From Ectothiorhodospiraceae bacterium (lineage in GTDB: Bacteria > Pseudomonadota > Gammaproteobacteria > Nitrococcales > Aquisalimonadaceae): 40,741 nt of DNA. The notes below the pieces were generated by a model. That model was not told the DNA's origin. It did no database searches and saw only the letters and a list, made by a program, of their open reading frames with translations. Where the stretch lies: NCBI GenBank assembly GCA_003565775.1, contig PXAT01000189.1, positions 1 through 40,741 on the forward strand, given 5' to 3'. Shown one piece after another: positions 3,906 to 17,691 of the stretch (the stretch's first letter is position 1; every line of letters starts with the position of its first letter). A program made the translations under genes and the position numbers.

Positions 3906-5186
3906 ATGACGCGAAACGCCTTGTACGCCGGGCTTGATGTCGGTACCTCCGGTCTCCGGCTGGTGGTCTGCGATTGCCGCGGCGAGAGTTGCATCAGCAC
4001 GCGTCGGACCTGGCCGGGCGGCGTCATGCCCGACCGGGCAGACAGTTGGTGGGACGCGGGCAGAGGCCTGCTTGAGGAACTGCCCCCGTCCGTGCGAACC
4101 GATCTGGCTGCCATTGCCGTGGGTGGAACGTCCGGCACTGTCCTGCTGGCAACGCCGGAGGGGCGCGCCCTCGGCCCGGCCATGGCCTACAACCAGCCGG
4201 CAGATGCCGCGGCGCAACAGCGTCTGGATGCCCTGGCGCCGGCACAAAGCGCCGCCCGCGGCAGTGGCTCGGGGCTGGCCCGAGCCGTTTCCCTGTTCGA
4301 GCGAATGCCGCCGTCGGGTGCGCTGCGGGTCGCAAACCAGGCCGACTGGCTTGCGGCACAGTTGCTGGGCGCGTTGCGGTATACCGACGAGAACAACGCG
4401 CTGAAACTCGGTTACGATCCGGTGTCGCGCTGCTGGCCGGATTGGGTGCTGGCCTGCGGGTTGCCGCCGGAAGCCTTACTGACTGTGCGTGCCCCCGGCG
4501 ATGTGCTGGGAACCCTGGCGCCGGGTGTTGCGCTGGACATCGGTCTTCCGGCGCGCTGCCGGGTGGTGGCCGGCACGACCGACAGCATTGCCGGTTTCCT
4601 CGCCACCGGCGCCCATCAGATCGGAGATGCGGTTACCTCGCTCGGTACCACGCTGGCGGTCAAGCTACTGACAGGGGAACCGGCTTTCTCGGCTGCGCAC
4701 GGTGTTTACAGTCACCGGCTGGGGGATCTCTTTCTCGCGGGCGGCGCATCGAACTCCGGCGCCGGTGTGCTGGCGGATTTCTTTACCGGTCCGGAACTGG
4801 AGGGCTTGTCCTGTCGTTTGCAGCCGGATCGGCCGACCGACCTGGATTACTACCCCTTGTCCCGTCCCGGCGAACGGTTTCCGACCCATGATCCCGGTTT
4901 GCTTCCCAGGCTGCAGCCGCGGCCGGCCGACGATGTCGTCTTTCTGCAGGGCATGCTGGAAGGCATCGCGCGGATCGAAGCTCGGGCATACGCACGTCTC
5001 AGCGAAATGGGGTGTCCGCCCCCGCACCGGATCATCACTGTTGGAGGTGGCGCGAAAAATGAGGCCTGGCGGCAGATCCGGCAACGGGAGCTGGGGGTCG
5101 AAGTGGTCAATCTGGCGGCTGCAGAGCCCGCGCTGGGCGTGGCGCGACTTGCTGCCCGTGCTCTGGAAATCGTAGGGAAACGCTGA
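3906..5186 (+). CDS. FGGY-family carbohydrate kinase, D-ribulose-kinase-like
   Basis: 426 aa. The FGGY fold is evident from the N-terminal phosphate loop [13 protein letters not shown] (about 9-21), the [12 protein letters not shown] strand, a C-terminal ATP-binding half with [10 protein letters not shown] and SLGTTLAVK, and ITVGGGAKN near 380. It phosphorylates a sugar or sugar alcohol with ATP. The compact length and the GTSGTVLL and YNQ motifs resemble the D-ribulose kinases of cyanobacteria and plants more than xylulose or glycerol kinases; the substrate remains inferred. The gene diverges from the chemotaxis receptor. Its last codons (GGG AAA CGC TGA) lie inside the repeat copy starting at 5173, so the natural C-terminus may have been replaced by insertion. 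Confidence 0.82.
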
Positions 5187-5338
5187 ATTATTCCCGCGTC
5201 TGCGCCCGAGACCGGTTTTGGCCCCTGGCGGCGTTGCGCTGCTTGATCGCAGAATGACTGCGGCACTGCGCAGCGCGCCTTGCCTCGGAGAAAACGCGGA
5301 CTCCAACGCAGGCGTGCGAATACTTCAGCGTTTCCCTA
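5173..5338 (+). repeat. MITE-like dispersed repeat, copy B (complete, short form)
   Basis: 166 bp with inverted ends TAGGGAAACGCTGAATTATT and AATACTTCAGCGTTTCCCTA, which pair at about 17 of 20 positions. The interior shares CCCGCGTCTGCGCCCGAGACC, TGCTTGATCGCAGAATGACT and GCGCAGCGCGCCTTGCC with copies A and D. It lacks their roughly 100-bp middle hairpin block. TA lies at both outer edges, as expected for an element using a TA target. No coding capacity is visible, so it would be a non-autonomous element. It supplies the TGA that ends the sugar-kinase gene. Confidence 0.88.
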
Positions 5339-5340
5339 GG

Positions 5341-5537
5341 TGTGATCTCTCAACAGGTTGTCCACGGAGCGTCTCCGATGGATGCTGAGTTTGCGGACTT
5401 GGCAGACCAAACAGGAGCCACCCCGTGGACACCCATCACAATGCCTCGCTGACTCCCCGAGGTCGAGCCACTATGGTTGCTCGTGTCCTCGACCAGGGCT
5501 GGAGCTACCGGGCAACAGCTGCTCATTACCAGTCAGT
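5341..5537 (+). pseudogene. IS481-family transposase remnant (N-terminal fragment)
   Basis: From the GTG at 5425 about 36 codons read MDTHHNASLTPRGRATMVAR then VLDQGWSYRATAAHYQ. This matches the start of IS481-type transposases: a short MxxHxNAxLTPxGR signature followed by the first helix of the helix-turn-helix. After about 5532 the similarity stops and no catalytic DDE domain follows. Upstream, TGTGATCTCTCAACAGGTTG at 5341-5360 looks like an IS left end beginning TGT. The remnant sits 2 bases past repeat copy B, so this site has been hit more than once. Family assignment rests on recalled motif similarity. Confidence 0.6.
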
Positions 5538-5642
5538 GTTTCCCCGGGCAGTCCTGCCCACGGCAAAAGCGACCGGCAGCAGCTCAGTCACATCACTGCA
5601 GATGCCGCTGGGTGTGTCGGCCCAGCGGCACATTCCGGCTCA
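5538..5642. other. Gene-free stretch with one strong hairpin
   Basis: No gene is evident between the transposase fragment and the lipoprotein stop codon. The only clear structure is a 10-bp perfect stem, described separately as a terminator. Short frames here continue from neighbours and resemble no protein. Confidence 0.5.
5603..5630 (-). terminator. Hairpin downstream of the acidic lipoprotein gene
   Basis: TGCCGCTGGG at 5603-5612 and CCCAGCGGCA at 5621-5630 form a perfect 10-bp stem with an 8-base loop. It starts about 12 bases past the minus-strand stop codon at 5643. No T-run follows on the minus strand, so it may terminate weakly or protect the mRNA 3' end. Confidence 0.45.
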
Positions 5643-5837
5643 TCAGTTCTCGAACTCCTCATCGAAGTCCTCGAAGTCGTTATCGTCCTCGAACTCGTCT
5701 TCAATGTCGTCGACGGTATCGTCAATTTCCTCGCCGGCTTCTTCCGCGGGCCCCTGATCATCGCCACAACCGGTCAAAGGCACCATCGTGAACAGGGCAA
5801 GCAGGATAAGCCCCAGTAGCCGATATATCGTTTTCAT
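5643..5837 (-). CDS. Small acidic lipoprotein
   Basis: 64 aa. A signal peptide (MKTIYRLLGLILLALFTMVP) ends in the lipobox LTGC, with the lipidated Cys at about residue 24. The mature part is about 40 residues and is almost entirely Asp, Glu, Gly, Phe and Asn (EEIDDTVDDIEDEFEDDNDF and similar). The residue after Cys is Gly, not Asp, so sorting to the outer membrane is expected. A good ribosome-binding site, AAGGAGATACGCA, precedes the ATG at 5837; the frame upstream of it is not credible. Function is unknown. The acidic tail may bind cations or a basic partner, which is inference only. Nothing recognisable lies in 5838-6083. Confidence 0.75.
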   Translation of the reverse strand: MKTIYRLLGLILLALFTMVPLTGCGDDQGPAEEAGEEIDDTVDDIEDEFEDDNDFEDFDEEFEN

Positions 5838-6083
5838 TGCGTATCTCCTTGCAGAAATGCGGATTAACGAAATGCATGAAACAGGCCATGCGTCGGCCCG
5901 TCGCCATATAGCTGACGTCCAATGCAGACGTGTAAACAAGCAGGGTTTCTCTGGGAGACTGCGGTTGTTTTATGTGCCATGTATCGATTTGACACATTGC
6001 CGACATGCTCGCGCCTCCGTCCCGGCAGCCCTGCTATCGCTCCGGCACCGCGTCTTGCCAGATAATCATAGTCCGTCTCGGGC

Positions 6084-6368
6084 TCAGGGCGTCGTGTTGA
6101 CCGTGTTCCTCAGGACATGCCAACTGCCGACAACCTTCTTCACGGACGGCAAGGCCGCAATCGCGGCAAGTCCGGCGCGGCCGATCAGCGGTCGCAATTG
6201 CCGGAAAAAGAAGCCGGCCAGGAAAACCCGGGCGAGTCCGACTGGAGACAGGGCCTGTTGTATTGCGGCCTGATGCCAGCGAGATCGCTGGTGCTGCAGG
6301 AACTGCAGATCCGCCGAGATCTCGTTCCGCAAGTTGGCGGCTCGCCGGCGCAGGGGGCGGTTAAGCAT
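6084..6368 (-). CDS. YqjK-like small inner-membrane-associated protein
   Basis: 94 aa with a basic N-terminal half (LRRRAANLRNEISADLQFLQ, probably helical) followed by a modest hydrophobic stretch around residues 42-72. It is the last gene of a trio with YqjE-like and YqjD-like genes, and its start overlaps the YqjE-like stop by 8 bases (6361-6368), which implies translational coupling. In E. coli the order yqjD-yqjE-yqjK is the same, and YqjK has similar size and layout. Sequence similarity is weak, so the assignment rests mostly on context. The biochemical role is unknown. Confidence 0.6.
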   Translation of the reverse strand: MLNRPLRRRAANLRNEISADLQFLQHQRSRWHQAAIQQALSPVGLARVFLAGFFFRQLRPLIGRAGLAAIAALPSVKKVVGSWHVLRNTVNTTP

Positions 6369-6798
6369 GATCCTGGCCTTGCGGTCTGCCCAGTGCTTCG
6401 GCGAGTGCTGCCCGGCTCTGGTGGAAACCCAGATCCTTGATCAGGGTTCTCAGCCACAGCGCGAGTGCAGCACCTGTCAGCAGGTTGAACAGGGCGGCGG
6501 CCAGTGCGGCCGCCCAGCCGGGCCAACCCGCCACATCGGCCAGGACCAGCCCGAGCGCTGCACCGAGGTACAGCCAGATGCTGAGGGCCAGGATGCCGAG
6601 AATCAGTGCGGATATCAGCAGGATGACGACGGTCTGCAGGGCCAGTCGGGCATCGGTCGCGAACAGCGCTGCGCTATTCCGCAACAGACCGGAGATGACC
6701 GCCCCGAGCTCCGCCAGCGCGTTGTCAGGCGACGGGTCCTCCGGTTCCGGCTCGGGTGGAACCTGACGGGTCGCATCCTCTTCTGTCTGATCGTTCAT
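6361..6798 (-). CDS. YqjE / phage-holin-superfamily III membrane protein
   Basis: 145 aa. The N-terminal ~40 residues are acidic and proline-rich (EEDATRQVPPEPEPEDPSPD). Next comes an amphipathic segment (LGAVISGLLRNSAALFATDA) and two long hydrophobic hairpins at about residues 52-75 and 80-108. That is the layout of the YqjE/DUF1469 family, classed as holin-like but chromosomal and not lytic in known cases. It sits between the yqjD-like and yqjK-like genes, 12 bases after the former. E. coli YqjD and ElaB tie ribosomes to the inner membrane in stationary phase, and YqjE may assist there. Its role here is inferred. Confidence 0.75.
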   Translation of the reverse strand: MNDQTEEDATRQVPPEPEPEDPSPDNALAELGAVISGLLRNSAALFATDARLALQTVVILLISALILGILALSIWLYLGAALGLVLADVAGWPGWAAALAAALFNLLTGAALALWLRTLIKDLGFHQSRAALAEALGRPQGQDHA

Positions 6799-6810
6799 GC
6801 GGGCGCGCTA

Positions 6811-7095
6811 TCAGCGGCGCCGATTGAGCGAGGAGAACAGCGAGCCGGCAGCGAAGGCGAGACCGAGCGCCGTTAGCGGGTTTTCACGCACGAATCCAAC
6901 CACACTGCCGATCAGTTCGTCAGAACGCTCGCGAGCCTGGTGCGCCCGATCGCGCAGCTGCTCGTCGGCGCCGGCGGCACGGTCGCGAATGGTCTCCTCG
7001 GCGGCGGCCGCCTTCTCGGCAACGCGATCCACCGTTTCGTGGGCCTTCTCTGCGGCTCGCTGCGTGGTTCTTGAAGTCTCTTTTTCTGTGGCCAT
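6811..7095 (-). CDS. YqjD/ElaB-like (DUF883-type) membrane-anchored protein
   Basis: 94 aa. A long charged, Ala/Glu/Arg-rich helix with heptad-like spacing (about residues 5-62) is followed by a C-terminal hydrophobic anchor (VRENPLTALGLAFAAGSLFS) and a basic tail NRRR. The ENPLTALGLAFAAG anchor with its glycine zipper is typical of the YqjD/ElaB/YgaM group, which binds ribosomes at the membrane in stationary phase in E. coli. The ATG at 7095 follows an ACGGAGA site; upstream in-frame codons are not conserved-looking. It heads the trio, probably as one transcript. Stress or stationary-phase control is expected from the family but not seen in the sequence. Confidence 0.75.
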   Translation of the reverse strand: MATEKETSRTTQRAAEKAHETVDRVAEKAAAAEETIRDRAAGADEQLRDRAHQARERSDELIGSVVGFVRENPLTALGLAFAAGSLFSSLNRRR

Positions 7096-7203
7096 GGTGC
7101 GATCTCCGTGAAGTGCTGGCGGATCAGGTGACGCCGTTCGAATGCCACCGGCACGGGGCAACAGCGGCGATTACGGCTCCCTCTCAATCTAGCAGGTCGG
7201 CTT

Positions 7204-8355
7204 TCATGTGTCCGGACGCGGCGGACGGTAAACGGTGTCGGCGGTCTGGTCGTCGATCATGACATGCGACATGTAGCGATGCGTCAGATGGCGCCAGAGC
7301 GTGATGATGAACGCGGTCAAAGGCACGGCCAGGATCATGCCGATGATGCCACCGAGGGCTGTCCCCCAGAAAAAGATCGAGATCACCCCCAGCGCCGGAT
7401 GCAGGCCCGAACGGTCGGCCATGATCTTCGGCGTCAACAGCCAGCTCTCGATCAACTGCACGAGTGCGAACACCAGCAGCACCCATGCCACCAGTTCCGC
7501 GCCGCCACCGGGCTGCAGGTAGGCCACAGGCAGCACCAGAATGAGGCCGACGATAATTCCCAGAAACGGCACGATATTGAGCAGGCCGAGAAACAGCCCG
7601 AACGGGATTGCGGCTTGCAGCCCCGCCAGCGTGAAGCCCAGCGCGAGCAGGATTCCCATGATCATGGCAATGATCAACTGACCGCGGAAAAACCCGGTGA
7701 CGTAGTCGATGAAAACCGAACCGAGATAAACGATTTCCTTGCGTCTGTCCTCGCGCAGTACCTGCAGGGCCTCGAGAAATGGGCGTTGCATCCGTCGGCC
7801 CGAAAGCAGGGCGAAGAACAGGAACAACGGCACGAAGGCCAGACCGACCAGCGTTTCCAGGTAGCGCATGACGCGGTCGGTGGCATCCTCCATTTCCGGG
7901 AGGAGGTCGCGCAGGTGATCCTCTTCCATGCGGGCGGTAATCATGGCCGCAATGTCGGGGAAACGGGCGACGAACTGATTGTGCCAGCGGGAGAACGTGT
8001 CCGGTGCATCGTCGAAGAACTGGGCGAGCTGGGCCACGGTCGCCGGCAGGACCACCATCAGTGTCAGTGCGGCGGCGAAGAAAAACACCGCGAACAAAAG
8101 GATCACCGCAGGCAGGCGGCCGAAGCCGAAACGCTGTTCCATGCTGTCAACCACCGGCGACAGAACCAGCGCGATGACTCCGGCGACCGACAGCGGCAGC
8201 AGGATGCCGTAGAAGGTCGCGACCAGTTTCGCCAGGACCCAGACGATGAACACCACGAGGCTGGCCAGCACCACCCCGGCGCCGACCAGCACGGTAACGC
8301 GCAGCAGACCGCGTTCCGCCGGACTGAACAGTCCGGCGGGCCCGTGATCACTCAT
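7204..8355 (-). CDS. AI-2E family transporter (PerM/TqsA/YdiK type)
   Basis: 383 aa with about eight membrane segments. The family layout is a pair of N-terminal helices, a helix pair around 90-115, a soluble region around 115-165 (FFDDAPDTFSRWHNQFVARF), and a C-terminal bundle. The bundle holds the signature GLLNIVPFLGIIVGLI and an ESWLLTPKIM segment around 300. Members include TqsA, linked to autoinducer-2 export, and various Na+-coupled or unknown permeases; the substrate is not predictable. The ATG at 8355 lies 24 bases after the stop of the DUF1328 gene, so they likely share a transcript. The yqjD-like gene starts 109 bases beyond this stop, possibly as a separate unit. Confidence 0.85.
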   Translation of the reverse strand: MSDHGPAGLFSPAERGLLRVTVLVGAGVVLASLVVFIVWVLAKLVATFYGILLPLSVAGVIALVLSPVVDSMEQRFGFGRLPAVILLFAVFFFAAALTLMVVLPATVAQLAQFFDDAPDTFSRWHNQFVARFPDIAAMITARMEEDHLRDLLPEMEDATDRVMRYLETLVGLAFVPLFLFFALLSGRRMQRPFLEALQVLREDRRKEIVYLGSVFIDYVTGFFRGQLIIAMIMGILLALGFTLAGLQAAIPFGLFLGLLNIVPFLGIIVGLILVLPVAYLQPGGGAELVAWVLLVFALVQLIESWLLTPKIMADRSGLHPALGVISIFFWGTALGGIIGMILAVPLTAFIITLWRHLTHRYMSHVMIDDQTADTVYRPPRPDT

Positions 8356-8379
8356 GGCCGCTGATACGACTTGGCTGCG

Positions 8380-8550
8380 TCATGCCGGTGGCGCGGAGAC
8401 GCCACCGAAGATGAGTGCGGCGATAAACAGGACGAGGAAAACGAAAAACAGGATCTTGGCGAACGAAGCGGCCATGCCGGCGATGCCGGTAAAACCGAGC
8501 ACGCCGGCCACCAGTGCGACCACCAGAAAAATCAGGGCCCAGGTCAGCAT
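8380..8550 (-). CDS. DUF1328 small membrane protein (YtjA-like)
   Basis: 56 aa on the minus strand, starting [20 protein letters not shown]. Two hydrophobic helices (about 4-22 and 30-50) are separated by the [14 protein letters not shown] turn, and it ends FGGVSAPPA. This is the full length and pattern of the DUF1328/YtjA family of 50-60-residue inner-membrane proteins. They are of unknown function and often sit near stress or osmotic genes. A strong AAAGGAGGT site lies 5 bases before the ATG. It directly precedes the AI-2E-family transporter gene. The gap 8551-8810 between it and the divergent gene presumably holds both promoters; no confident -35/-10 pair was found. Confidence 0.9.
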
Positions 8551-8810
8551 CGAATACCTCCTTTCGGAATAGAGCAGTTCTTCCCTGGCGGAGCAAAAAC
8601 TGTGCCGGCCACCCAGCTGCCAGTCCTGAACTTCAGCAGACGGAACGCACTTGCTGTGGTACGACTATCACTTAAGGTCGGCGTGTTGTTCCCGTCAAGC
8701 CGGGGTCGTGGTTGCGACGGTGTGTCTGCCGTTGCTGTTCTACACTGAACCGCTCGGCAACGTGCCTCATGACTGCGTCGGAGCGGCACGGGGCAATCGT
8801 GGAGAGGTGT

Positions 8811-9740
8811 ATGGCAACAATCGATAGACCTTGGCTCGGCGCGCTGCTGCCGGCGGTTTGCCTCGCGTCGGGAAACCTGTTTGCGATCGAGCTCGATCTC
8901 GAGCAGATCGCTGACGGTGTCCATGTGCATCAGGGCGTGCACGAAGACGTCAATGCCGACAACCACGGAGACATCGCCAATATCGGTTTCATCATTGGCC
9001 GGGATTGTGTCGCGATTATCGACAGTGGCGGTTCACCGGCCGTTGGCAAGGCGCTGCGCGCAGAAGTCCATGCCCTGACCGACACGCCGATCTGCTACGT
9101 CATCAACACGCATGTGCATCCGGATCATGTCTTCGGCAACGTCGCCTTTGTCGGCGAGGACGTGCAGTTTGTCGGACATCACCGTCTGGGAGCGCAACTG
9201 GCGGCGCGCGGCGAGTATTACCTGGACGCGATGACGCGGATGCTCGACGAACCGCTGTCCGAGGACGTGATCGTCGGGCCGGACATTGCCGTCGAGGACT
9301 CGCTGACGCTGGATCTGGGTGATCGTCTGCTGCGGCTGGAGGCGATGCCCGAGGCGCATACCGACACCGATCTCATCATCATGGATCAGGCCACGGAAAC
9401 GCTCTGGCTCGGTGATCTGCTGTTCGTCGACCGGATTCCGTCGATGGATGGCAGCCTGCTCGGCTGGCTGGCGGTCATGGACCGGCTGCGTGACATGCCG
9501 GCGGCCCGGGTGGTGGCGGGCCACGGGCCGGTCAGCCTCGACTGGCCGGATGCAGCCGACGATCAGCAGCATTATCTCGAGATGCTGCGAGACCAGACGC
9601 GTCAGGTGATCGAGGCCGGCGCAACGATCGAGCAGGCCTTGCAATACGTCGGTCGTGACGAACGCGATGCATGGTTGCTGTTCGAGGAGTATCATGAAGG
9701 AAATGTCCAGTCCGCATTTGCTGAACTGGAATGGGAGTGA
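8811..9740 (+). CDS. Quinoprotein relay system zinc metallohydrolase (metallo-beta-lactamase fold)
   Basis: 309 aa with an N-terminal secretion signal (about residues 1-25). The metallo-beta-lactamase zinc motif HVHPDH is at residues 101-106 (H101, H103, D105, H106). Further ligands are likely in EAHTDTDLIIM and GHGPV. The closest family I recognise is the SoxH-related metallohydrolases found beside quinoprotein alcohol dehydrogenases. They are annotated as part of a PQQ-dehydrogenase relay, with no proven substrate. The next gene, 16 bases on, encodes the SoxYZ-like carrier that normally accompanies it, which supports the call. A GGAGAGGTGT site precedes the ATG at 8811; about 33 upstream in-frame codons are rejected for that reason. 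Confidence 0.8.
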   Translation: MATIDRPWLGALLPAVCLASGNLFAIELDLEQIADGVHVHQGVHEDVNADNHGDIANIGFIIGRDCVAIIDSGGSPAVGKALRAEVHALTDTPICYVINTHVHPDHVFGNVAFVGEDVQFVGHHRLGAQLAARGEYYLDAMTRMLDEPLSEDVIVGPDIAVEDSLTLDLGDRLLRLEAMPEAHTDTDLIIMDQATETLWLGDLLFVDRIPSMDGSLLGWLAVMDRLRDMPAARVVAGHGPVSLDWPDAADDQQHYLEMLRDQTRQVIEAGATIEQALQYVGRDERDAWLLFEEYHEGNVQSAFAELEWE

Positions 9741-9756
9741 TCCCGGGAGGAGCATC

Positions 9757-10572
9757 ATGTCACGGCTGGTCTGTCTCGTGCTGGCGCTGTGTGTCTGCCT
9801 GCCGCTGTGGGCGGCGGACGAGGATGGCGAGCGTTGGAAACTGATTCGCGATGACCTGTTCGGTGATCGCGCCATCGAAAAAGGCGATCACCTGATGGCC
9901 CTGAAGGCCCCGTTTCGGGCCTCTGACGCCGCGCTGGTTCCGATCGGCGTCGAAGATCAGCGCGGAGAGGCCGACCCCGCCATCCGCAGGCTCTGGCTGA
10001 TTGTCGACGACAACCCCGTGCCGCTTGCCGGTTCCTTCGAATACGGTCCGGCGGCCAGCAGCATCGACATGTCCACCCGGGTACGGGTCAATGCCTACTC
10101 GCATGTGCGGGCGGTGGCAGAGACCGAGGACGGCTCCCTCTATATGGTGCGCGAGCATGTGCGCGCCAGCGGTGGTTGCAGTGCGCCGGTCAGTGCCGAT
10201 GACGAAGAGGCGCTAAAGGGCATGGGCGAGATTCGCGTGCGGGCCTGGGACCGTCAGGACAAGGGGGGAGCCGATCTCCAGATCAGCATCCGCCACCCCA
10301 ATTTCTCCGGCATGCAGATGGACCAGGTTACCCGTCTGTACCGCCGTGCCCATTACGTGAAAGATGTGGAAGTGCTGTCCGGTGGCGAGCGCGTCCTGCG
10401 TGCCGACCTGACCATTGCCATGAGCCGTGACCCCAGCCTGCGGCTGGCCTCCAGTGTGGCGGGCGATCAGGACGTGACCGTCGTGGTCAACGACAGCGAA
10501 GGCAATACCTTCCGCGAGGAAGTCAGCGTCAGCCCCCGCATCTCCGACTTCGACTTCTCCGCCGCACAGTAA
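9757..10572 (+). CDS. Quinoprotein dehydrogenase-associated SoxYZ-like carrier protein
   Basis: 271 aa with a signal peptide (about 1-19, ending LPLWA). A SoxY-like domain carries the SGGCSAP motif with the conserved Cys at residue 141, followed by a SoxZ-like Ig fold (about 160-265, including HPNFSGMQMDQ). In thiosulfate oxidation SoxY carries the substrate on a Cys near its C-terminus. In this fused family the role is inferred to be carrying an intermediate for a periplasmic PQQ dehydrogenase. It is probably co-transcribed with the metallohydrolase, and CGGGAGGAGC gives a good ribosome-binding site for the ATG at 9757. No PQQ-dependent dehydrogenase, cytochrome or pqq gene lies in the window. 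Confidence 0.82.
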   Translation: MSRLVCLVLALCVCLPLWAADEDGERWKLIRDDLFGDRAIEKGDHLMALKAPFRASDAALVPIGVEDQRGEADPAIRRLWLIVDDNPVPLAGSFEYGPAASSIDMSTRVRVNAYSHVRAVAETEDGSLYMVREHVRASGGCSAPVSADDEEALKGMGEIRVRAWDRQDKGGADLQISIRHPNFSGMQMDQVTRLYRRAHYVKDVEVLSGGERVLRADLTIAMSRDPSLRLASSVAGDQDVTVVVNDSEGNTFREEVSVSPRISDFDFSAAQ

Positions 10573-10583
10573 GGCCCACGGGG

Positions 10584-10613
10584 CGCTGATCCGTTCTTAC
10601 GACCGGATCAGCG
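10584..10613 (+). terminator. Hairpin ending the quinoprotein-relay pair
   Basis: CGCTGATCCG at 10584-10593 and CGGATCAGCG at 10604-10613 form a perfect 10-bp stem with a 10-base loop, 11 bases past the carrier stop codon. No U-tract follows. The rest of the gap to 10745 holds only a short motif CAACCCCGTGAGACTCCACC that also occurs, slightly changed, at 1775-1795. Confidence 0.55.
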
Positions 10614-10745
10614 TCCACGGCCTCAGCTCAGTCGACGCGTTTCCGGTTCAAACCAGCCGGGGGCAACCCCGTGAGACTCCACCCGTATAGGCCTTTGCAG
10701 AGCGGCGTGGGCGAGGTTCACTTTTCTTCGAACTTTGAACCGGGC

Positions 10746-11228
10746 TTATTCCGCCAACCCCTCCCGGATGATCGCGTGCATGGTCTCGTTCAGGCGCCGA
10801 GCGGCCTCGTCGGCCTGCTCGATGCCGCTGTCTTCGGGCACGCGCAGACTGCTTGCTACGACCTGGTCACCCTCGCGATACACCGCGACCCGGCAGGGCA
10901 TGTACCGGATCAGATCCGGCTTGGCCTTGAGCAGGTCGGTGACCAGATCCAGGTCGCACATCTGAATCACGGTTGCGCCGGGCAGGCTGTCCACGCCTCT
11001 GGACTCGAGAGCCTCGCCGAACTGGGTTCGCCCGGTGATCACGAAGTTGCGGGCGCTGGCGGCAAACTCCAGATCGAACAGGGCGTCGTCCAGCGGCTTG
11101 TTGCTGCGTTCCATGATCACGTCGCTGTCCTGACCTGTCGCCGGCTCGGACGCGCACGCGCTCAGCAAGAGGCAAAGCGCAATTGTCGTAATGATGCGAA
11201 TCAGGTCTTTCCGGGGTCCTGTCTGCAT
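10746..11228 (-). CDS. DUF302 domain lipoprotein
   Basis: 160 aa from the ATG at 11228. A basic N-terminus (GPRKDLIR) and hydrophobic helix end in the lipobox LLSAC (Cys about residue 25). The mature protein has the DUF302 pattern: FDLEFAASARNFVITGRTQF, then an IQMCDLDLVTDLLKAKPDLIRYMPCR core, then VAVYREGDQV. DUF302 proteins are small alpha/beta folds of uncertain role, often periplasmic and sometimes near sulfur or heavy-metal genes. An in-frame ATG at 11264 would add 12 residues before the signal and is less likely. The gene converges on the quinoprotein-relay pair. Confidence 0.75.
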   Translation of the reverse strand: MQTGPRKDLIRIITTIALCLLLSACASEPATGQDSDVIMERSNKPLDDALFDLEFAASARNFVITGRTQFGEALESRGVDSLPGATVIQMCDLDLVTDLLKAKPDLIRYMPCRVAVYREGDQVVASSLRVPEDSGIEQADEAARRLNETMHAIIREGLAE

Positions 11229-11611
11229 GGCTATGAATCCGTCCGCTGAGGGCACATGTGCCATAACGATACGCGGATTTTGCCGCTAATCTGCGTCTCG
11301 TTTCCCGTCTCGTCTCGTCCTGACGCCGTTTCCGCGTTCTGGCACGGTCGCTGCAATAACCCAAGTGCGACTCGGATGCCGCGCAAGGTCATCCGGGCCG
11401 TATGCGACAGACCCGGCGGATGCCGGGTCAGTGAGAGCAAGAATCCCGTCGGGATTACGTTCTCCCCCTCTGTGAATCGCATGAGAGCCCTTTTGACCGC
11501 CGGTTGCCCACCGGCGGTTTTTTTTGCCGAAGAATCTGTTGCGATGCGCCGTCGATGAGTACCGCGGCACCGGATCCGGCCGGGGCCGGCAGTCGTGCTA
11601 TTTTCGCTGCC
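11229..11611 (+). other. Long leader region upstream of the SLC13-type permease
   Basis: 383 bases without a convincing gene. It holds at least two hairpins on the plus strand: GACCCGGC-GGAT-GCCGGGTC at 11410-11429, and AATCCC-GTC-GGGATT near 11441-11455, the latter extendable by GAGAG/TTCTC. A strong intrinsic terminator follows at 11496-11525, and then the permease start. It could be an attenuated leader, a riboswitch or a separate small RNA. No known riboswitch consensus was recognised. Confidence 0.5.
11496..11525 (+). terminator. Strong intrinsic terminator before the SLC13 permease
   Basis: ACCGCCGG at 11496-11503, a 7-base loop, CCGGCGGT at 11511-11518 and then an unbroken run of T to 11525: a textbook Rho-independent terminator on the plus strand. 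The only plus-strand material it could terminate is the leader upstream of it. That implies either attenuation of the permease gene or a small RNA. Confidence 0.9.
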
Positions 11612-13393
11612 ATGGATCCGCAATTACTCATCGGTCTGGTTCTTGCCGTCGCTCTGGGACTGTTCGTCTGGGGGTACTGGCGCTACGACCTGGTCGCGTT
11701 GATGACATTGATCGCCTGCGTCGCCCTTGGGCTGGTGCCGGCCGATGGCGCCTTTGCCGGGTTTTCGCATCCCGCCGTGGTGACCGTGGCCGCGGTTCTG
11801 GTTCTCAGTCGCGCGCTGGGCACCGCCGGTGTGGTCGACATCATGGGTGGCTGGCTCGGCCGGATCGGTGAACGTCCGCTGGTGCAGGCGGCGCTTTTGA
11901 CGCTGCTTGTCGCCGTGTTTTCCGCGTTCATGAACAATGTCGGTGCCCTGGCTCTGTTGTTGCCCGTGGCGATCCGCATTGCCCGAGACGGCGGTTTTCC
12001 TGCGTCCCGCCTGCTCATGCCCCTCGCCTTCGGGTCCTTGCTCGGCGGCATGACCACACTGATCGGTACACCGCCGAATATCATCATCGCCAGCTACCGG
12101 GAGACCAGCCTCGATCAGGCCTTCGGGATGTTCGACTTTGCTCCGGTCGGGGTTGCCGTCATGGCGGCAGGTCTGGTCCTGCTGATGGTCCTGCCACGTT
12201 TCGTGCTGCCGGACCGGCGCGGTGAGGCAGCGCCCGACGACTTGTTCGACATTGGTGGTTACCTGCTGGAGCTGCGTGTCGACGAGGACTCTGATCTGAT
12301 CGGCGAAACCCAGCGTGCTCTGGAGCCGGTCCTGGCAGAGAAGCTCGACGGCATGCTGGTCGGCTTGCGGCGCAACGGTCAGCGGAGCCTGCCGCAACAC
12401 GGCAATCAGCAGATCCGCGAAGGCGATGTGCTGGTCGTTCAGGCCGACCCGGAAAAGGTACAGGCTGCGGCCGAGGGGCTGGGGCTGAAGCTGGACGTTG
12501 ACGAGGAACTCGCTGTCAGCCTTGAAGCGGCCGACGACGAACTGGTCACGATGGAAGCGGTGGTGCTGCCGGACGGACGCATCGCCGGTCACGATCTGCG
12601 CTCCCTCGCTCTGCCCCGGCGTTTCGGTGTGGTGGTGCTGGCGGTGGCGCGTCAGGGGCAGCGTGTGAGTCAGCGTCTGAGCCGGATCCGGTTTCGCGGT
12701 GGCGACGTGCTGCTGCTTCAGGGCGATCGCGAGGCCCTCTCCGAGGCCACGTCCCAGCTGGGCTGTCTGCCGCTGGCCGACCGCGAACTGTCGCTGGGCG
12801 CACCGCGCAAGCTGTTCATCGGCCTGGGTCTGTTCCTGTTTGCCATTGCCGCCGTGGTGGCGGGTCTGGCGCCGGTTCAGATCGCCCTGACCGCTGCTGC
12901 GGCGGGTGTGGTTCTGGGTGGGGTGATCAACCTGCGTCAGGCCTATTCGGCCATCGACTGGCCGGTGATCATTCTCCTCGGCGCCATGATTCCGGTGGGT
13001 CAGGCCTTCGAGGCCTCGGGCGCAGCGGCCAGCCTGACGGCGGTCCTGCTCGAAGTGGGCACCGAACTGCCCCCTGTCGTGATCCTCGGTGCCCTGCTGC
13101 TGACCGCGATGCTGCTGTCGGATCTCATCAACAACGCCAGTGCCGCAGTGCTTCTGGCGCCGATTGCGGTAGCTCTGGCGCATTCTCTCAATGTCTCTCC
13201 GGACCCGTTTCTGATGGCGGTTGCCATCGGCGCTTCCTGTGCCTTCCTGACCCCGATCGGCCATCAGTCGAATACGCTGGTCATGGGGCCGGGCGGCTAC
13301 CGCTTCAGTGACTATGCCCGCCTTGGCCTGCCGCTGCAGATACTTGTGTTCTGCCTAGGTCTGCCGATGCTGTTACTGGTCTGGCCGTTTTAG
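11612..13393 (+). CDS. SLC13-family permease with two TrkA-C (RCK_C) domains
   Basis: 593 aa. An N-terminal membrane half has the SLC13/CitM features FMNNVGALALLLPVAI and [21 protein letters not shown]. Two cytosolic TrkA-C domains follow, at about 210-290 and 300-385, each ending in a GDVLxxQ strand. A C-terminal membrane half has DLINNASAAVLLAPIAVALA and SCAFLTPIGHQSN. The pattern fits divalent-anion:Na+ symporters and related sulfate or dicarboxylate permeases; RCK_C domains usually bind nucleotides or ions to gate transport. Two starts are possible (11555, 11612). The ATG at 11612 gives the usual family N-terminus. The final Phe is followed by TAG, which is the first triplet of repeat copy C. 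Confidence 0.87.
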   Translation: MDPQLLIGLVLAVALGLFVWGYWRYDLVALMTLIACVALGLVPADGAFAGFSHPAVVTVAAVLVLSRALGTAGVVDIMGGWLGRIGERPLVQAALLTLLVAVFSAFMNNVGALALLLPVAIRIARDGGFPASRLLMPLAFGSLLGGMTTLIGTPPNIIIASYRETSLDQAFGMFDFAPVGVAVMAAGLVLLMVLPRFVLPDRRGEAAPDDLFDIGGYLLELRVDEDSDLIGETQRALEPVLAEKLDGMLVGLRRNGQRSLPQHGNQQIREGDVLVVQADPEKVQAAAEGLGLKLDVDEELAVSLEAADDELVTMEAVVLPDGRIAGHDLRSLALPRRFGVVVLAVARQGQRVSQRLSRIRFRGGDVLLLQGDREALSEATSQLGCLPLADRELSLGAPRKLFIGLGLFLFAIAAVVAGLAPVQIALTAAAAGVVLGGVINLRQAYSAIDWPVIILLGAMIPVGQAFEASGAAASLTAVLLEVGTELPPVVILGALLLTAMLLSDLINNASAAVLLAPIAVALAHSLNVSPDPFLMAVAIGASCAFLTPIGHQSNTLVMGPGGYRFSDYARLGLPLQILVFCLGLPMLLLVWPF

Positions 13394-13415
13394 GGAATAC
13401 TTCAGCGTTTCCCTA
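13391..13415. repeat. MITE-like repeat, copy C (25-bp minimal form)
   Basis: TAGGGAA directly joined to TACTTCAGCGTTTCCCTA: only the two outer ends of the element remain, and the right 18 bases match the right end of copy B exactly. It provides the TAG stop of the permease gene. It looks like an internal-deletion derivative or an excision footprint. Confidence 0.75.
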
Positions 13416-13516
13416 GTCCGGCTCGGCGGATGAACGAACCGTGAATGCGGAACTCAGCCCGAGTTCACCGCCGTCTGGTACCGTCGCGGTTACTTCCGTT
13501 CTGGGACGGACCTCGG

Positions 13517-14632
13517 ATGCCGCGCTGGCTGCTACTGCTGATTCTGCTGTCCTTCACGCTGCCGGCCGTGGCCCTGCCGCCACCGGAGTTCGGCGCTCGC
13601 GTGCAGCTGGAGCATATCGACTACAACGGCGATCGGCAGAATCCGCCCGACGGGTTCTTCTGGCGCGCCATCCGGCTCAGTGTCACCGGCCAGACCAACC
13701 CCGGCTGGGGCTACAAGGTGGAGTACGACGTCGCCTATGGACATGCCGATGCCGAGAATCTCTATCTCAGTTACATGAACCGGGATAACGAGTGGAGCCT
13801 TGGCGAACGCAAGGTGCCGCTCGGTATGGCGCGTCTGACCAGCGCCGGCCGCCTGACCCTGGCCGAACGCCCGGCACCCGTCGAGAGCCTGACCGACAGC
13901 ACACGCTTCGGTCTCTGGTATGCGCGGGAGCTGGAGCAGGGCCTGCTGCAGACCATGCTCTACAGTCGCAGCATCAATGACAGCGGCAACGCCCGTCCGC
14001 TGGGCCTGGCGGCGCGGCTGGTACTGAATCCGGTGCGCGACGGTGATCGCATCGTGCATCTTGCCAGCGCGGCCGCTTACGAGAATGTCGACCGGCGGGC
14101 CGATCCGTCGTACAGCGCTCGCCCCGAGGCGCGGCCGGATCGGGGCCGTTTCCGCCTGCTGAATACCGGCTCCATCGAGGACGTGGCCAACACCTTCTCC
14201 GGTGGCCTAGAAGCGGCGTTCCAGGTCGGTGCGCTGACCACCAAGGCCGAGTATCTCCGCATCCGGTTGGATCGCCGACGTGCGAGCAACCTTGTCTTCG
14301 ATGGCTGGTATGTCGAGAGCAGTTACCGTCTGACCGGTGAGCCGATGACCTATGATGGATCCTCGTTCCGCGACGTGGTGCCGCGCGGCACCTATGGCGC
14401 CTGGGAGGTGGCCGCGCGCTACAGCCGCCTGGATCTCAATGACGGCGGTGTCCGTGGTGGTCGTCAGGATGCGGTGACGCTGGCGCTCAACTGGTACGCC
14501 ACCGAGCGGCTTCGCTTCTACGCCAATCTGGTGGACGTGCGCGCGCGTGGCGGTGACGTGGAGATCGACGGCATGCCCGTGGGCCGGGAAAGCGCGCAAA
14601 TCGTCGTGCTGCGGACACAGATCGGCTTCTGA
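13517..14632 (+). CDS. Phosphate-selective porin O/P-like outer-membrane protein
   Basis: 371 aa with a signal peptide ending near AVALP (about residue 20) and then a beta-strand-rich, aromatic and charged sequence. Recognisable OprO/OprP-like features are GYKVEYDVAYGHADAENLYL, GERKVPLGMARLTSAGRLTL, AEYLRIRL near two thirds of the length, and a terminal strand ending in Phe (VLRTQIGF) for outer-membrane insertion. OprP-type porins form anion-selective trimers. The Arg-rich loops (RRADPSYSARPEARPDRGRF) would suit anion passage, though selectivity is inferred. The start at 13517 directly precedes the signal peptide. The gene lies 123 bases after the SLC13-type anion permease on the same strand, suggesting a shared transport theme. 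Confidence 0.75.
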   Translation: MPRWLLLLILLSFTLPAVALPPPEFGARVQLEHIDYNGDRQNPPDGFFWRAIRLSVTGQTNPGWGYKVEYDVAYGHADAENLYLSYMNRDNEWSLGERKVPLGMARLTSAGRLTLAERPAPVESLTDSTRFGLWYARELEQGLLQTMLYSRSINDSGNARPLGLAARLVLNPVRDGDRIVHLASAAAYENVDRRADPSYSARPEARPDRGRFRLLNTGSIEDVANTFSGGLEAAFQVGALTTKAEYLRIRLDRRRASNLVFDGWYVESSYRLTGEPMTYDGSSFRDVVPRGTYGAWEVAARYSRLDLNDGGVRGGRQDAVTLALNWYATERLRFYANLVDVRARGGDVEIDGMPVGRESAQIVVLRTQIGF

Positions 14633-14635
14633 CAG

Positions 14636-15253
14636 CTATTTGTCGTCGGCCGTTGAGGTATCCGGGCGGTGCGACCAGAGCGGGAAGTCAATGCCGGCAA
14701 GGTGGTTCATGACCCATGCCTGTAACAGCAGCAGGACCACGCCGCCCAGCAGAACCGGGATCTGGCTCAGCTGCGGCATCAGCCCCAGGGAGACGATCAG
14801 CGCGGTGGCGGCGGCCGGAGGATGATTGGCCCTGAACCAGACCATCAGCGCGCAACTCGCAGCCAGCGACAAACCAACGGCACCAACCCGTGACAGATCG
14901 ACGCTTGTCTGCAGCGCGGATGGGGCGTCCAGCAGACCGAAAAGCGCCAGCGCGCACCAGCCGGCGATGGCACCGATGCCATGTCCGAGAAGGGTGTTGC
15001 GAGGACAGGCCGAGGAACTGGTGGGTTCGTAAAACAGGATGAACGCCGTTGCACCGAGGGACGGGAAGATGAAGGCTGCCTGGGTCAGTAATGCCAGCGA
15101 CGCGATCAGCGTGATGCTGATGCCGGCGCTGATGAAGGCGAACACGGCCAGCACGGCAGTGGGATTATAACGGCGGCTTATTCGGCGAAGCCTTATCCGG
15201 CCGAGGAGTCCGTAGACCAGGCGACGACGTCGCCGTTCATTGGCGGTACGCAT
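14636..15253 (-). CDS. HPP family integral membrane protein
   Basis: 205 aa. A very basic N-terminus (NERRRRRLVYGLLGRIRLRR) is followed by four to five membrane helices. The HPP motif NHPPAAATAL is at about 143-152 and the conserved FPSLGATAF and PTSSSACPRN segments are near 63-95. Plant and cyanobacterial HPP members are nitrite transporters; bacterial members are mostly uncharacterised. The gene converges on the porin gene with only 3 bases between stop codons. GGAAGAGG precedes the ATG at 15253. Confidence 0.8.
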   Translation of the reverse strand: MRTANERRRRRLVYGLLGRIRLRRISRRYNPTAVLAVFAFISAGISITLIASLALLTQAAFIFPSLGATAFILFYEPTSSSACPRNTLLGHGIGAIAGWCALALFGLLDAPSALQTSVDLSRVGAVGLSLAASCALMVWFRANHPPAAATALIVSLGLMPQLSQIPVLLGGVVLLLLQAWVMNHLAGIDFPLWSHRPDTSTADDK

Positions 15254-15335
15254 GGGTGCGCCTCTTCCTTGCGACGCCCGGCGGGCGGCACCGACACGTC
15301 GCCTATCTGGATGCGTCGCGCCGGTGCCGTTGGCC

Positions 15336-15884
15336 TCAGATCTTTCCGTCGAGGCCCATCTGGTAGTACTTGTGAGTGATGCTGTCCTGGTTCTCCAGCA
15401 GCCAGTCGATGCTCGGTTCGTGATGCATCGCCTTGTGAATCGCCTGGGCCATCGCCTTGCGATGGATATCGAACAGCACCTTGTGATCCAGGTCGTCCAG
15501 GTCCGCGACCATCGGATTCAGCCAGACCGAGCAGATGATGCCCAGATCATTGGCTTTTTCCTTGGGAATGTCGCCGGCACGCACCGCGTCGAGGACGCCG
15601 TTGGCGATGGCGGCCTGCACCGTACCCATCAGGATGTTGGTGTACCGGCTGTTCTTGACCGTCACCTTGCTCACGCAAAGAGTCACCGGTCGCACCATGA
15701 TGTCGGTGTTGAGAATCGCGAAGACGCGGCTGTGGCCCTTGACCTGATCGCCCGTCAGGGTCGCCAGCGCGGTTCCGACCGGGCCGTCCAGTTCGCCGAT
15801 CACGACTTCGGGTTCGGCTGCGGTGCCGGGCGGTCCGCCGCCAACCAGGGCTTCGCCGGATCGAAACACGATACGTTCGCTCAT
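15336..15884 (-). CDS. Formaldehyde-activating enzyme (Fae) homologue lacking the catalytic His
   Basis: 182 aa. The Fae fold is clear: GEALVGGG (about 10-17), VIGELDGPVGTAL (about 28-40), TLCVSKVTVKNSRYTNILMG with VQAAIANGVLDAV, and IPKEKANDLGIICSVWLNP. Fae condenses formaldehyde with tetrahydromethanopterin in methylotrophs. In the well-studied enzyme a His about seven residues after the GEALVG motif (H17) is the proposed catalytic acid. Here that stretch reads PPGTAAEPEV with no His, so activity is doubtful. The C-terminal tail (HKYYQMGLDGKI) is longer than usual. The ATG at 15884 follows a GGAGG site. No methanopterin genes are nearby. Confidence 0.82.
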   Translation of the reverse strand: MSERIVFRSGEALVGGGPPGTAAEPEVVIGELDGPVGTALATLTGDQVKGHSRVFAILNTDIMVRPVTLCVSKVTVKNSRYTNILMGTVQAAIANGVLDAVRAGDIPKEKANDLGIICSVWLNPMVADLDDLDHKVLFDIHRKAMAQAIHKAMHHEPSIDWLLENQDSITHKYYQMGLDGKI

Positions 15885-16209
15885 AATGACAAGTCCTCCG
15901 AAGGAAAAATGGCTGCAAAGCATGGCCGTGCACACGGCAACGGTCAAACGCCCGACCGGAACAGCCAGCGCGGTCAATCACTGCTAAGCTCGTGATTCAG
16001 TGAAACACTTGTGCATCCGGATGATCGTGCTGGCGTTAGTGTGTCCCCGGCCAGGGTGCGCAGCGTAGCGCCGCCGTCATGCTGCGGTCAGGTAGCGCAA
16101 TGCCGCAGGGGCCGAAGTCGGTCTCGGGCGCAGACGCGGGAACAAACCATTGTCTCCGCAAAGAGTTTCCTATACTCACGTCATCATGACCGGAAGAAGG
16201 AGTCCGCCG
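15885..16209. other. Intergenic region between the divergent Fae-like and HHH genes
   Basis: 325 bases without a convincing gene. The central part is the degenerate repeat copy E (16049-16142). The remainder presumably holds the two divergent promoters, but no confident promoter was identified. Confidence 0.5.
16049..16142 (-). repeat. MITE-like repeat, copy E (partial, inverted)
   Basis: Read on the minus strand it gives TTCCCGCGTCTGCGCCCGAG, then a GACC...GGCCCCTG stretch, the TGACCGCAGCATGACGGCGG block and GCGCTACGCTGCGCACC, parallel to copy B at 5190-5284. Both inverted ends are missing or degenerate, so it is an old, truncated copy. Confidence 0.7.
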
Positions 16210-16608
16210 ATGTGGTCCGATTTCATGAAGCGCTGGATGGATATCGTGTTCTGGTGGTTGCCGTCGGACGGGCGTGACGGCCCCAGGCAGGCCAGTCGTT
16301 CGCAGGCAACGGCTGCCGGTCAGTCGACGCAACCGCAGGACCGGCCGCGTACGCCCGAGCCGCCGATCACCACCGAAGAGGTGGCCGAGGAAGTGGCGGG
16401 TGAGGGTGACGACCTGACAGCGATCAAGGGTGTCGGCCCGGCCATGGCAGACAAGCTCAAGAGTATGGGGATCAGAACGTTCTCCGATCTCGCCGCCGCG
16501 GACCCGGAAGCACTGACCGCTTCGCTGAAGCAGCAGCGGGTGGTCATCTCCGTTGATCGGGTCAAGACCTGGAAACAGGAGGCAGGCGCGCGCCAGCCGG
16601 CAATCTGA
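16210..16608 (+). CDS. Helix-hairpin-helix domain protein with amphipathic N-terminus
   Basis: 132 aa. The N-terminus (MWSDFMKRWMDIVFWWLPSD) is short, aromatic and membrane-seeking, though probably not a true transmembrane helix. A linker rich in Gln, Thr and Pro follows. The C-terminal ~60 residues form tandem helix-hairpin-helix motifs (LTAIKGVGPAMADKLKSMGI, then FSDLAAADPEALTASL). This domain usually binds DNA non-specifically or mediates protein contacts, as in many small hypothetical proteins. The ATG at 16210 is chosen because AAGGAG lies 8 bases before it. No partner gene is adjacent, so its role is unknown. Confidence 0.7.
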   Translation: MWSDFMKRWMDIVFWWLPSDGRDGPRQASRSQATAAGQSTQPQDRPRTPEPPITTEEVAEEVAGEGDDLTAIKGVGPAMADKLKSMGIRTFSDLAAADPEALTASLKQQRVVISVDRVKTWKQEAGARQPAI

Positions 16609-16806
16609 ACCCCCGCTGTGCCCCGGCGAACCGCCGGTTTCCCCTGTTGTCCGTACTGCGGTACCGGGTCGCGCTTTTTCTGCGGGCCCGGCAGAGGTGG
16701 CAGCCGACCCCTGCACGGGCGATCCGTCGGGATCCCTGCGTTGGCATCGATCGGTGTCTGCTATAGGGTTCGGCCTGCACATCGGACAACGACAGGAGGA
16801 GAAAAC

Positions 16807-17199
16807 ATGCCGGTCTGGCAGAGAACGACCCTGGGAATGATCATGGCGGCGGCGCTTGTCAGCGCTCCGCTGGTGCATGCGGATTCGGCGCCGGAAGCGG
16901 CCCAGGAGCATCTGGCGCACTTGACCGAGACGCTTGCTAGCGGTGAACACGACGATTTCATCCGTAATGGCAACGACGCCTTCAAATCGAATCTCAGCGA
17001 ACGCATGTTTGCGTCGGTTCAGGAACATCTGGGTAATCGTTTCGCGCAGGGATTCGAGACCACTTATCTCTCGACGATTCACCAGTACGGCATGGAAGTC
17101 CATGTCTGGAGCATCCACTTCGACGACGAAGATGGTGACCTGATAGCCCGCCTGGCCGTCGACCCGAATGGCGACATCGGCGGTATCTGGTTCCACTAG
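16807..17199 (+). CDS. Small secreted protein of unknown function
   Basis: 130 aa. A signal peptide (about 1-23, ending PLVHA) is followed by a compact domain of about 100 residues. The first half is helical (PEAAQEHLAHLTETLASGEH) and the second half is beta-rich (YGMEVHVWSIHFDDEDGDLI, then ARLAVDPNGDIGGIWFH). The pattern loosely recalls NTF2-like or DUF3887-type periplasmic domains, but no family is asserted. The ATG at 16807 follows a strong AGGAGGAG site. The TAG stop coincides with the first triplet of repeat copy D, so the original C-terminus could have been changed by insertion. No gene is evident in 16609-16806. Confidence 0.65.
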   Translation: MPVWQRTTLGMIMAAALVSAPLVHADSAPEAAQEHLAHLTETLASGEHDDFIRNGNDAFKSNLSERMFASVQEHLGNRFAQGFETTYLSTIHQYGMEVHVWSIHFDDEDGDLIARLAVDPNGDIGGIWFH

Positions 17200-17473
17200 G
17201 GAGACGCAGATTTACTCCCGCGTTCGCGCTCGAGTCGATTCTGGCAGCCTGGCAAGGCGCGGTGCAGGCCCGGTAGCCGAAGCTACCGGGCCGGCGACGC
17301 AACACCGCCAGGGGCAAAAATCGGCCGAGCCCCCAAGGGGTTGGCGTCGCATTTTCCCTGACTGCGGTGTTGCGTTGCTTGACCGCAGAGTGACTGCGGC
17401 GCTGCGCAGCGCGCCTTGCCTCGGGAAAAATGCGATGCCAACGCGAACGTGCGAATGAATCAGCGTCTCCCTT
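17197..17473 (+). repeat. MITE-like dispersed repeat, copy D (complete, long form)
   Basis: 277 bp with ends TAGGGAGACGCAGATTTACT and GAATGAATCAGCGTCTCCCTT, inverted and about three-quarters matching. It shares with copy A the inner block around a hairpin, here GGCCCGGTAGC-CGAA-GCTACCGGGCC near 17267-17292. It also shares the right block TGCTTGACCGCAGAGTGACT and GCGCAGCGCGCCTTGCC with copy B. GCAACACCGC and GCGGTGTTGC inside the element are also inverted, so it could fold into a large branched structure. It supplies the TAG of the secreted-protein gene. A further left-end-like fragment, CTGATTCATTC (17482-17492), follows in inverted relation to 17453-17463. Confidence 0.85.
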
Positions 17474-17691
17474 GGTAAACACTGATTCATTCCGGGGCCG
17501 GTGTATCGGCTACCGGTAAGGCGTGACGCCGATCCGGTACCGGATCGGCGTTTTTGTCGCCGGCGGCCAGGACATGCAGGAGGCGAACCCTCCCGGCGAT
17601 TGCGTGAATTGAAGACAGAGTGCCGGCGCCCGCCCTCTCTGCTGTTGATTGCTGGTTGCGCCTGGCGCAAGAGGCAGCTCGGCTCGCCTGT
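17474..17691. other. Gene-free stretch after repeat copy D
   Basis: It holds an inverted echo of the repeat end (17482-17492), a strong palindromic terminator (17526-17555) and about 135 bases with nothing recognisable before the comF stop codon at 17692. Confidence 0.5.
17526..17555 (+). terminator. Intrinsic terminator
   Basis: ACGCCGATCCG (17526-17536) pairs perfectly with CGGATCGGCGT (17541-17551) around a GTAC loop, followed by TTTT. It would stop plus-strand transcripts coming through repeat copy D from the secreted-protein gene, and keep them out of the convergent comF gene. Confidence 0.88.

Follow-up and report, generated by a model that had tools for sequence, protein, structure and literature searches.

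Bacterial miniature inverted-repeat transposable elements (MITEs) are usually viewed as a pair of end sequences with filler between them. One described example, the IS5-like MITEPsy1 of Pseudomonas syringae pv. phaseolicola, measures 100 nt, is present in six copies in the strain and is reported to transpose in vivo (PMC3189936); another, QMITE2 of Coxiella burnetii, is a multi-copy MITE with a stable stem structure, with one copy next to the stop codon at the 3' end of enhC (PMC5896051; PMC10969869). Here we describe a family of repeats from a 40,741-nt stretch of DNA (contig PXAT01000189.1 of assembly GCA_003565775.1, from an Ectothiorhodospiraceae bacterium; hereafter the window), in which the interior is the conserved part, with its loops kept and its stems changing, and the ends differ between lineages. 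We consider it likely that these repeats are non-autonomous MITEs mobilised by an IS5-family transposase, which insert at YTAR sites, often on stop codons, and carry a conserved hairpin core.

The first-pass annotation of the window had proposed five related segments, A to E, as a MITE-like family in two structural forms. All five are present (Table 1), A, B, D and E with the support of a repeat profile, and a sixth, partial copy can be added. The profile was built from 28 long copies including D, so that the score of D holds by construction; reversed contigs searched with it gave no match at E < 1e-3. Copy C alone is below significance for its length (profile E 0.41), and 23 of its 25 nt are exactly equal to the end of A. 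The family is one of many copies rather than few: 34 repeat loci lie in 414 kb of the window's own genome (G000; 12.9% of 3.2 Mb, window included) and make up 1.3% of bases, so that about 260 copies are expected by extrapolation to the whole genome, and a profile search located 29 loci in 400 kb of a genome of the same genus (G001). The end pattern GGGAAACGCTGAA occurs at 28 sites genome-wide, against none for the reversed pattern, and TAGGGARACGCWGAW, with up to 3 mismatches, at 742 sites against 164. The assembly is a draft, and several repeat copies stand at contig ends. The two forms are borne out by 47 distinct paired copies, most of which came from searches with B and D, so that the sample leans to their forms: 22 measure 274-277 bp and 8 measure 163-168 bp, and the one-hairpin junction of B is common to at least four copies.

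The interior is strongly folded, as its earlier description as multi-hairpin had implied, with z-scores against shuffled sequences of -10.9 for D and -8.2 for B, and both copies match themselves on the opposite strand over nearly their full length. In D the ends form an outer stem, and the interior holds two hairpins, related to each other in inverted orientation and each detected by the module model; B has one hairpin. The inner 52 nt of hairpin 2 were aligned in 35 distinct copies, drawn from the genus and from relatives as distant as the order level; pairing holds in 94.5% of cells, and double changes number 32, where shuffles give 7.5. A broader alignment (A3) takes in 46 modules, of which the window supplies 3 and other genomes 43. 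It pairs in 90% of cells and shows double changes at 13 of 14 pairs; its double-change cells number 156, where shuffles give 49.6 and slid partners no more than 40, and its covariation score is 0.62 against 0.185. RNAalifold, unaided, recovers the same two stems in this alignment (12 of 14 pairs). The first-pass annotation had called for a covariance search for conserved or compensating stems; the stems of the module change yet stay paired. Conservation in the module is highest in GTT, near the 5' foot, and in GCCTTG, at the 3' foot, with CTTG and CTGC conserved between the stems in most rows. A third, enclosing stem varies by locus; its self-complementarity exceeds the 95th percentile of swapped flanks in 34 of the 36 loci tested from a set of 68 foreign loci. 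The interior is more than filler: it consists of two inverted copies, or one in the B form, of a hairpin with conserved internal loops and three varying yet paired stems.

The core shows clear structural constraint, whether at the level of RNA or of single-stranded DNA; the earlier suggestion that the element may act as RNA is borne out as regards structure, and the data fit single-stranded DNA as well. Our tentative proposal, to which we give somewhat less than even weight, is that the core acts when transcribed, as a putative 3'-end RNA hairpin bound by a host factor. Its main rival, rather unlikely in our estimation, is that the core works as single-stranded DNA, for example through lagging-strand hairpins that raise transposition or recruit a host DNA-binding protein. 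In keeping with that view, the aligned strand of the module holds almost no wobble pairs (5 G-U among 643 cells) though the stems change fully, and the whole element is palindromic, with no clear orientation bias. Conserved internal loops combined with variable stems are, however, typical of RNA motifs, and DDE transposition uses double-stranded ends. The core could also be a functionless passenger of one ancient MITE lineage, its covariation produced by palindrome-restoring template switching. Intrastrand template switching can indeed correct palindromes, and the two modules of an element are inverted to each other; but such correction would tend to erase asymmetric internal loops, which are the best-kept parts, and the two modules of one element mostly differ in their stems. 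We regard this reading as doubtful, and more so than the previous one.

The same core is common to MITE-like elements of many other Pseudomonadota, where it stands between different ends. A covariance model from the 35-copy alignment detects the module in 17 of the 54 genomes searched in the order and, contrary to expectation, with E no higher than 1e-4 in 36 of 369 in the class (32 of 272 genera, own genome included), 5 of these 36 with at least 15 scored candidates. With the model from A3, the module is found in 60 of 398 genomes of the phylum (39 of 213 genera, own genome again included), 28 of the 60 lying outside the class; the E-values of both models are rough. A text rule independent of the models places the module in 61 of the 68 foreign loci and a second, inverted module in 24 of them, from 21 genomes. 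The spacing of the inverted pair is 55-57 nt in 18 of these 24, the others showing 45, 74 and 77 nt, and the opposite arrangement does not occur. Foreign elements found to have long inverted ends are mostly 264-290 bp. By single linkage, 40 tips from 38 genomes, picked by hand with further copies of one genome and inner-stem matches left out, fall into 14 kinds of ends, the largest of them a chain of several sub-kinds; about a dozen remain once an offset artefact (L269) and a kind similar to the window's own (G223) are allowed for. A transposase has been tied to the window's kind of end alone, and no genome search aimed at the other kinds was made.

We further suggest, at just short of an even chance, that this phylum-wide core, an inverted pair with a spacing of about 56 nt, is a selfish unit that has taken on the ends of many insertion sequences and is moved by whichever transposase its host has; it would represent an undescribed class of mobile structured element. 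Rfam 15 gave no match in the window at gathering scores; for 33 of the 68 foreign loci, at E up to 0.1, it gave no fitting family, mir-9338 over one element (L272) reaching 28.8 bits where the gathering score is 98. Close to a two-module element, positions 1306-1468 of locus L319 hold a cobalamin riboswitch (RF00174). Copy D is absent from the phage and plasmid collections searched, one foreign element (L284) is absent among plasmids, and three foreign ends gave chance-level matches or none. A further foreign locus (L273) has one 57-nt plasmid match, in pAcX50f of Azotobacter chroococcum (L338; positions 19292-19348 of the record), which holds one module (E 8e-17 with the A3 model) where no gene is listed.

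As to the ends, the family had been described by TAGGG...CCCTA. Inverted ends are indeed present far above chance; TAGGG itself resolves into target plus end, the third base being G or A and the base before TA mostly C or T, which gives YTAR as the edge and, as the consensus end type inserted into it, GGARACGCTGAWnTATTC. The duplication was tested on 45 paired own-genome copies of at least 100 bp, paired automatically on condition that each end resembled the motif (a single right end, at locus L075, is used in 2 of the 45). The same YTAR stands on both sides in 19 copies against 7.2 expected, and none of 20,000 shuffles reaches 19; Y agrees between the two sides in 35 of the 45 and R in 40. 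The target is YTAR with a 4-bp duplication, not TA alone. We also note that at two places (G000:C127:93954-94505 and G000:C143:12245-12793) a pair of full-length elements stands with one common YTAR between them, as if the element targeted the duplication at its own end.

Matching ends were found on IS5-family elements of relatives. A search with PF01609 located four elements with identical transposases in one genome (G004) and one in another (G011), from two related genera of the same bacterial family, where these elements are intact and have ends of the form YTAR-GGARRCRCTGATYTA. The element spans 1,210 bp including both flanks, and its 327-aa transposase belongs to NCBIfam transpos_IS5_4 (NF033581; Pfam DDE_Tnp_1). 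GGAAACGCTGATTTATTCGC, one end of the element at locus L140, is identical over 20 nt to the right end of the MITE long-form consensus. The flanks read TTAG/TTAG, CTAA/CTAG, CTAA/CTAA and TTAG/TTAG in G004 and CTAG/CTAA in G011, that is, perfect 4-bp YTAR duplications in three of five. We propose that an IS5-family transposase would act in trans on the consensus ends, inserting the repeat into YTAR and duplicating 4 bp, and that the copies of the genus were probably left by a past amplification, the transposase not being found there or only as a relic. Movement in trans, an element of the first-pass annotation, is very probable, by a transposase of IS5-family type of which no intact copy was found in the genus's four genomes; the transposase with matching ends that the annotation had proposed to look for was found in relatives and not in the own genome, where the IS4/IS5-type genes (L095, L096) show no pair of matching ends. 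Either the repeats of the genus have survived the loss of their transposase, or the draft assemblies do not include it. An origin of the core itself from the IS5 element was considered and set aside, loci L140 and L126 holding no module-like sequence beyond short chance matches. Separately, contig C1 of another genome (G036) carries a distant IS5-type transposase in ten full-length copies (49-50% identity to that of G004), and the module model found nothing in this genome.

Two other origins may be weighed against these ends. Repetitive extragenic palindromic (REP) sequences lack terminal repeats of the insertion-sequence type. That the repeats are REPs, or bacterial interspersed mosaic elements (BIMEs), moved by a RAYT tyrosine transposase and only by chance near insertion-sequence ends is very improbable as judged from ends and tags: inverted hairpin pairs do resemble BIMEs, and GTAG-type REPs have been reported in Thioalkalivibrio (PMC3733652), but the window repeats have true long terminal inverted repeats with 4-bp duplications, and by eye no GTAG or CGTC tag stands at the feet of the aligned modules (A1, A3). 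Least credible of all is the TA-target, IS630/Tc1-type transposase that the first-pass annotation had favoured, in the manner of RUP-like MITEs, since, for all the TA at both edges of many copies and the TA-type ends that some foreign elements with the same core may have, the bases outside TA agree on both sides far above chance as a 4-bp YTAR duplication, and the matching ends and target were found on IS5-family elements. The single IS630-type gene (PF13358) of the four genus genomes lies on contig C198 of the own assembly, of which L095 (3,171 bases, which by its length should span C198:1-3171 and the matched part of the gene) holds two scattered end matches with 3 mismatches and no pair. 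The best DDE_Tnp_1 match of the own genome and its only IS630-type match share this contig (L095, L268), which by eye is AT-richer than the others and is possibly contamination.

Since TAA or TAG is part of YTAR, an element inserted at the stop codon of a gene does not alter the protein. A frame counted as coding-like, by rule and with no gene caller, if it ran without a stop for 150 codons or more and had a GC-rich third codon position. Of the 33 element ends in G001, 12 supply the in-frame stop to a frame of this sort, compared with 50 of 1279 other YTAR sites (p 7e-9), and neither of the other two phases has any (0 of 33 each). Among 173 distinct ends of the window's kind taken from the own genome and relatives, 32 fall in the stop-codon phase and 6 and 2 in the others. 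With 200 codons and no coding filter, the counts are 15 of 36 against 82 of 1287 in G001 (p 5e-9) and 9 of 29 against 72 of 520 in the own genome (p 0.017). A count of stops by position alone, in which 149 inward frames end 38 times on YTAR, 11 times on TGA at +8, nowhere else from -7 to +15 and 36 times past +70, was discarded as evidence because it is partly mechanical, the element holding stops in two phases, and is superseded by the test of phase and coding signature. Within the window, the frame 16618-17199 before D receives its stop from CTAG (CAC TAG), where Methylonatrum kenyense has CAT TGA; the kinase frame 3906-5186 (+) ends on a TGA 8 bases inside the left end of B; and at site C, where the window keeps 25 nt, a metagenome-assembled genome (MAG), Ectothiorhodospiraceae CSBr16_16 (L174), has at least 125 nt of element at the same stop codon, where its contig breaks off within the element. 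The excess can come from selection against other insertions, with no targeting at all; copies at a gene's own stop codon would be the ones that selection retained.

Several results weigh against our interpretation. The duplication test in G001 gives 2 perfect of 8 against 1.0 expected, which is not significant, and neither is the stop-codon excess in the sampled contigs of the own genome under the coding filter (4 of 20 against 56 of 511, p 0.27). The 327-aa protein has no match in G000, G002 and G003, drafts that may miss multi-copy elements, and G001 has a single 47-aa transposase relic with a stop, so that the genus's four genomes hold no intact copy. As to the folding strand, the module alignment, with 5 G-U and 30 A-C cells, looks as if the complementary strand folds, and the whole long form, with 115 G-U and 34 A-C cells, points the other way, so that the two counts contradict each other. 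Elements at stop codons lie 15 in plus, 9 in minus and 5 in undetermined orientation, a distribution with no clear bias that lends no support to an RNA role, and the RNA and host-factor steps are ones that we infer. An inverted pair would let the core work in either orientation of insertion: with the modules inverted, the CAAGGC...AACGCC form comes first in transcripts of both strands. This fits the lack of clear bias, though it does not count as evidence of an RNA role.

The SoxYZ protein of the window, in which SoxY and SoxZ are fused in one frame (9655-10572; Pfam SoxY and SoxZ), is 80% identical to those of M. kenyense AMT1 and the CSBr16 MAG and 36-46% identical to 12 other loci (beta- and alphaproteobacterial records). 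Gene order is mostly common to the window and these two genomes over the 20.9 and 14.1 kb compared, and the window thus comes from a relative of theirs, perhaps of the same genus. Sites A and B have no element in either M. kenyense (L175) or the MAG (L174), and sites D and E have none in M. kenyense, L174 not reaching them. Base-exact empty sites were not found, the intergenic DNA being too diverged, except for the stop codon at D. At the start of the contig (window 1-111) there are about 16 tandem copies of a 7-bp unit, CAGCGCC.

Table 1. Repeat copies and hairpin modules in the window (positions in nt).
Feature	Position	Strand	Remarks
Copy A, two-hairpin form, right end lost	1492-1704	+	Profile E 7e-53; target TTAG 1491-1494
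Copy A, inner modules	1549-1600; 1655-1705	-; +	Module model
Copy B, one-hairpin form, both ends present	5173-5338	+	Profile E 4e-35; flanks GTAG 5172-5175, CTAG 5336-5339
Copy B, module	5231-5282	+	Module model
Sixth copy, partial, absent from the first-pass annotation	5988-6087	-	Profile positions 28-123, E 1.5e-7
Copy C, 25-nt remnant, one exact end	13391-13415		Flanks TTAG 13390-13393, CTAG 13413-13416
Copy E, partial	16000-16157	-	Profile E 5e-9; module 16052-16103 (-)
Copy D, two-hairpin form, both ends	17197-17473	+	Profile E 1e-76; flanks CTAG 17196-17199, CTTG 17471-17474
Copy D, module 1, inverted	17253-17305	-	Module model E 0.0014
Copy D, module 2, conserved internal-loop hairpin	17367-17418	+	Module model E 4.5e-17

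A conserved interior gives a handle on why some MITEs reach hundreds of copies, and landing on stop codons would partly explain how a genome bears so many insertions and keeps its genes. Should the core bind a host factor, it would amount to an unrecognised and widespread 3'-end signal, in RNA or DNA, of the Pseudomonadota; if it is a selfish unit, the element class would be common to the Gammaproteobacteria and other Pseudomonadota.

Among open-licence papers we found no description of the window family or of its core, which does not imply absence from print; the earlier statement that no named family with these ends is known agrees with this, and the common core is undescribed as far as that literature and Rfam 15 go. 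The ERIC and Chunjie MITEs are not known to have ends or core in common with the window repeats. They do resemble them in reaching tens to hundreds of copies, and Chunjie also in having size variants, as reported in PMC10969869. QMITE2 is set apart by its description, which has it holding a GTAG REP (PMC5896051; PMC10969869), and REPs and BIMEs, as portrayed in PMC3733652, resemble the window repeats as short, palindromic, dispersed units. With the IS5 family (NF033581) the agreement covers ends, YTAR target and 4-bp duplication, as seen in the intact elements of G004 and G011; the repeats differ from these elements in having no transposase gene and only about 20 terminal nt in common. MITEPsy1, going by its published description, is likewise IS5-like, inserts at CTAG or YTAA with a 4-nt duplication and has one end that begins GGAAGG (PMC3189936); it differs in its end sequence, and the window family has about 260 copies by extrapolation, the complete ones mostly near 166 or 275 bp and bearing the module. 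The window family is a new and very abundant member of the IS5-like kind of MITE.

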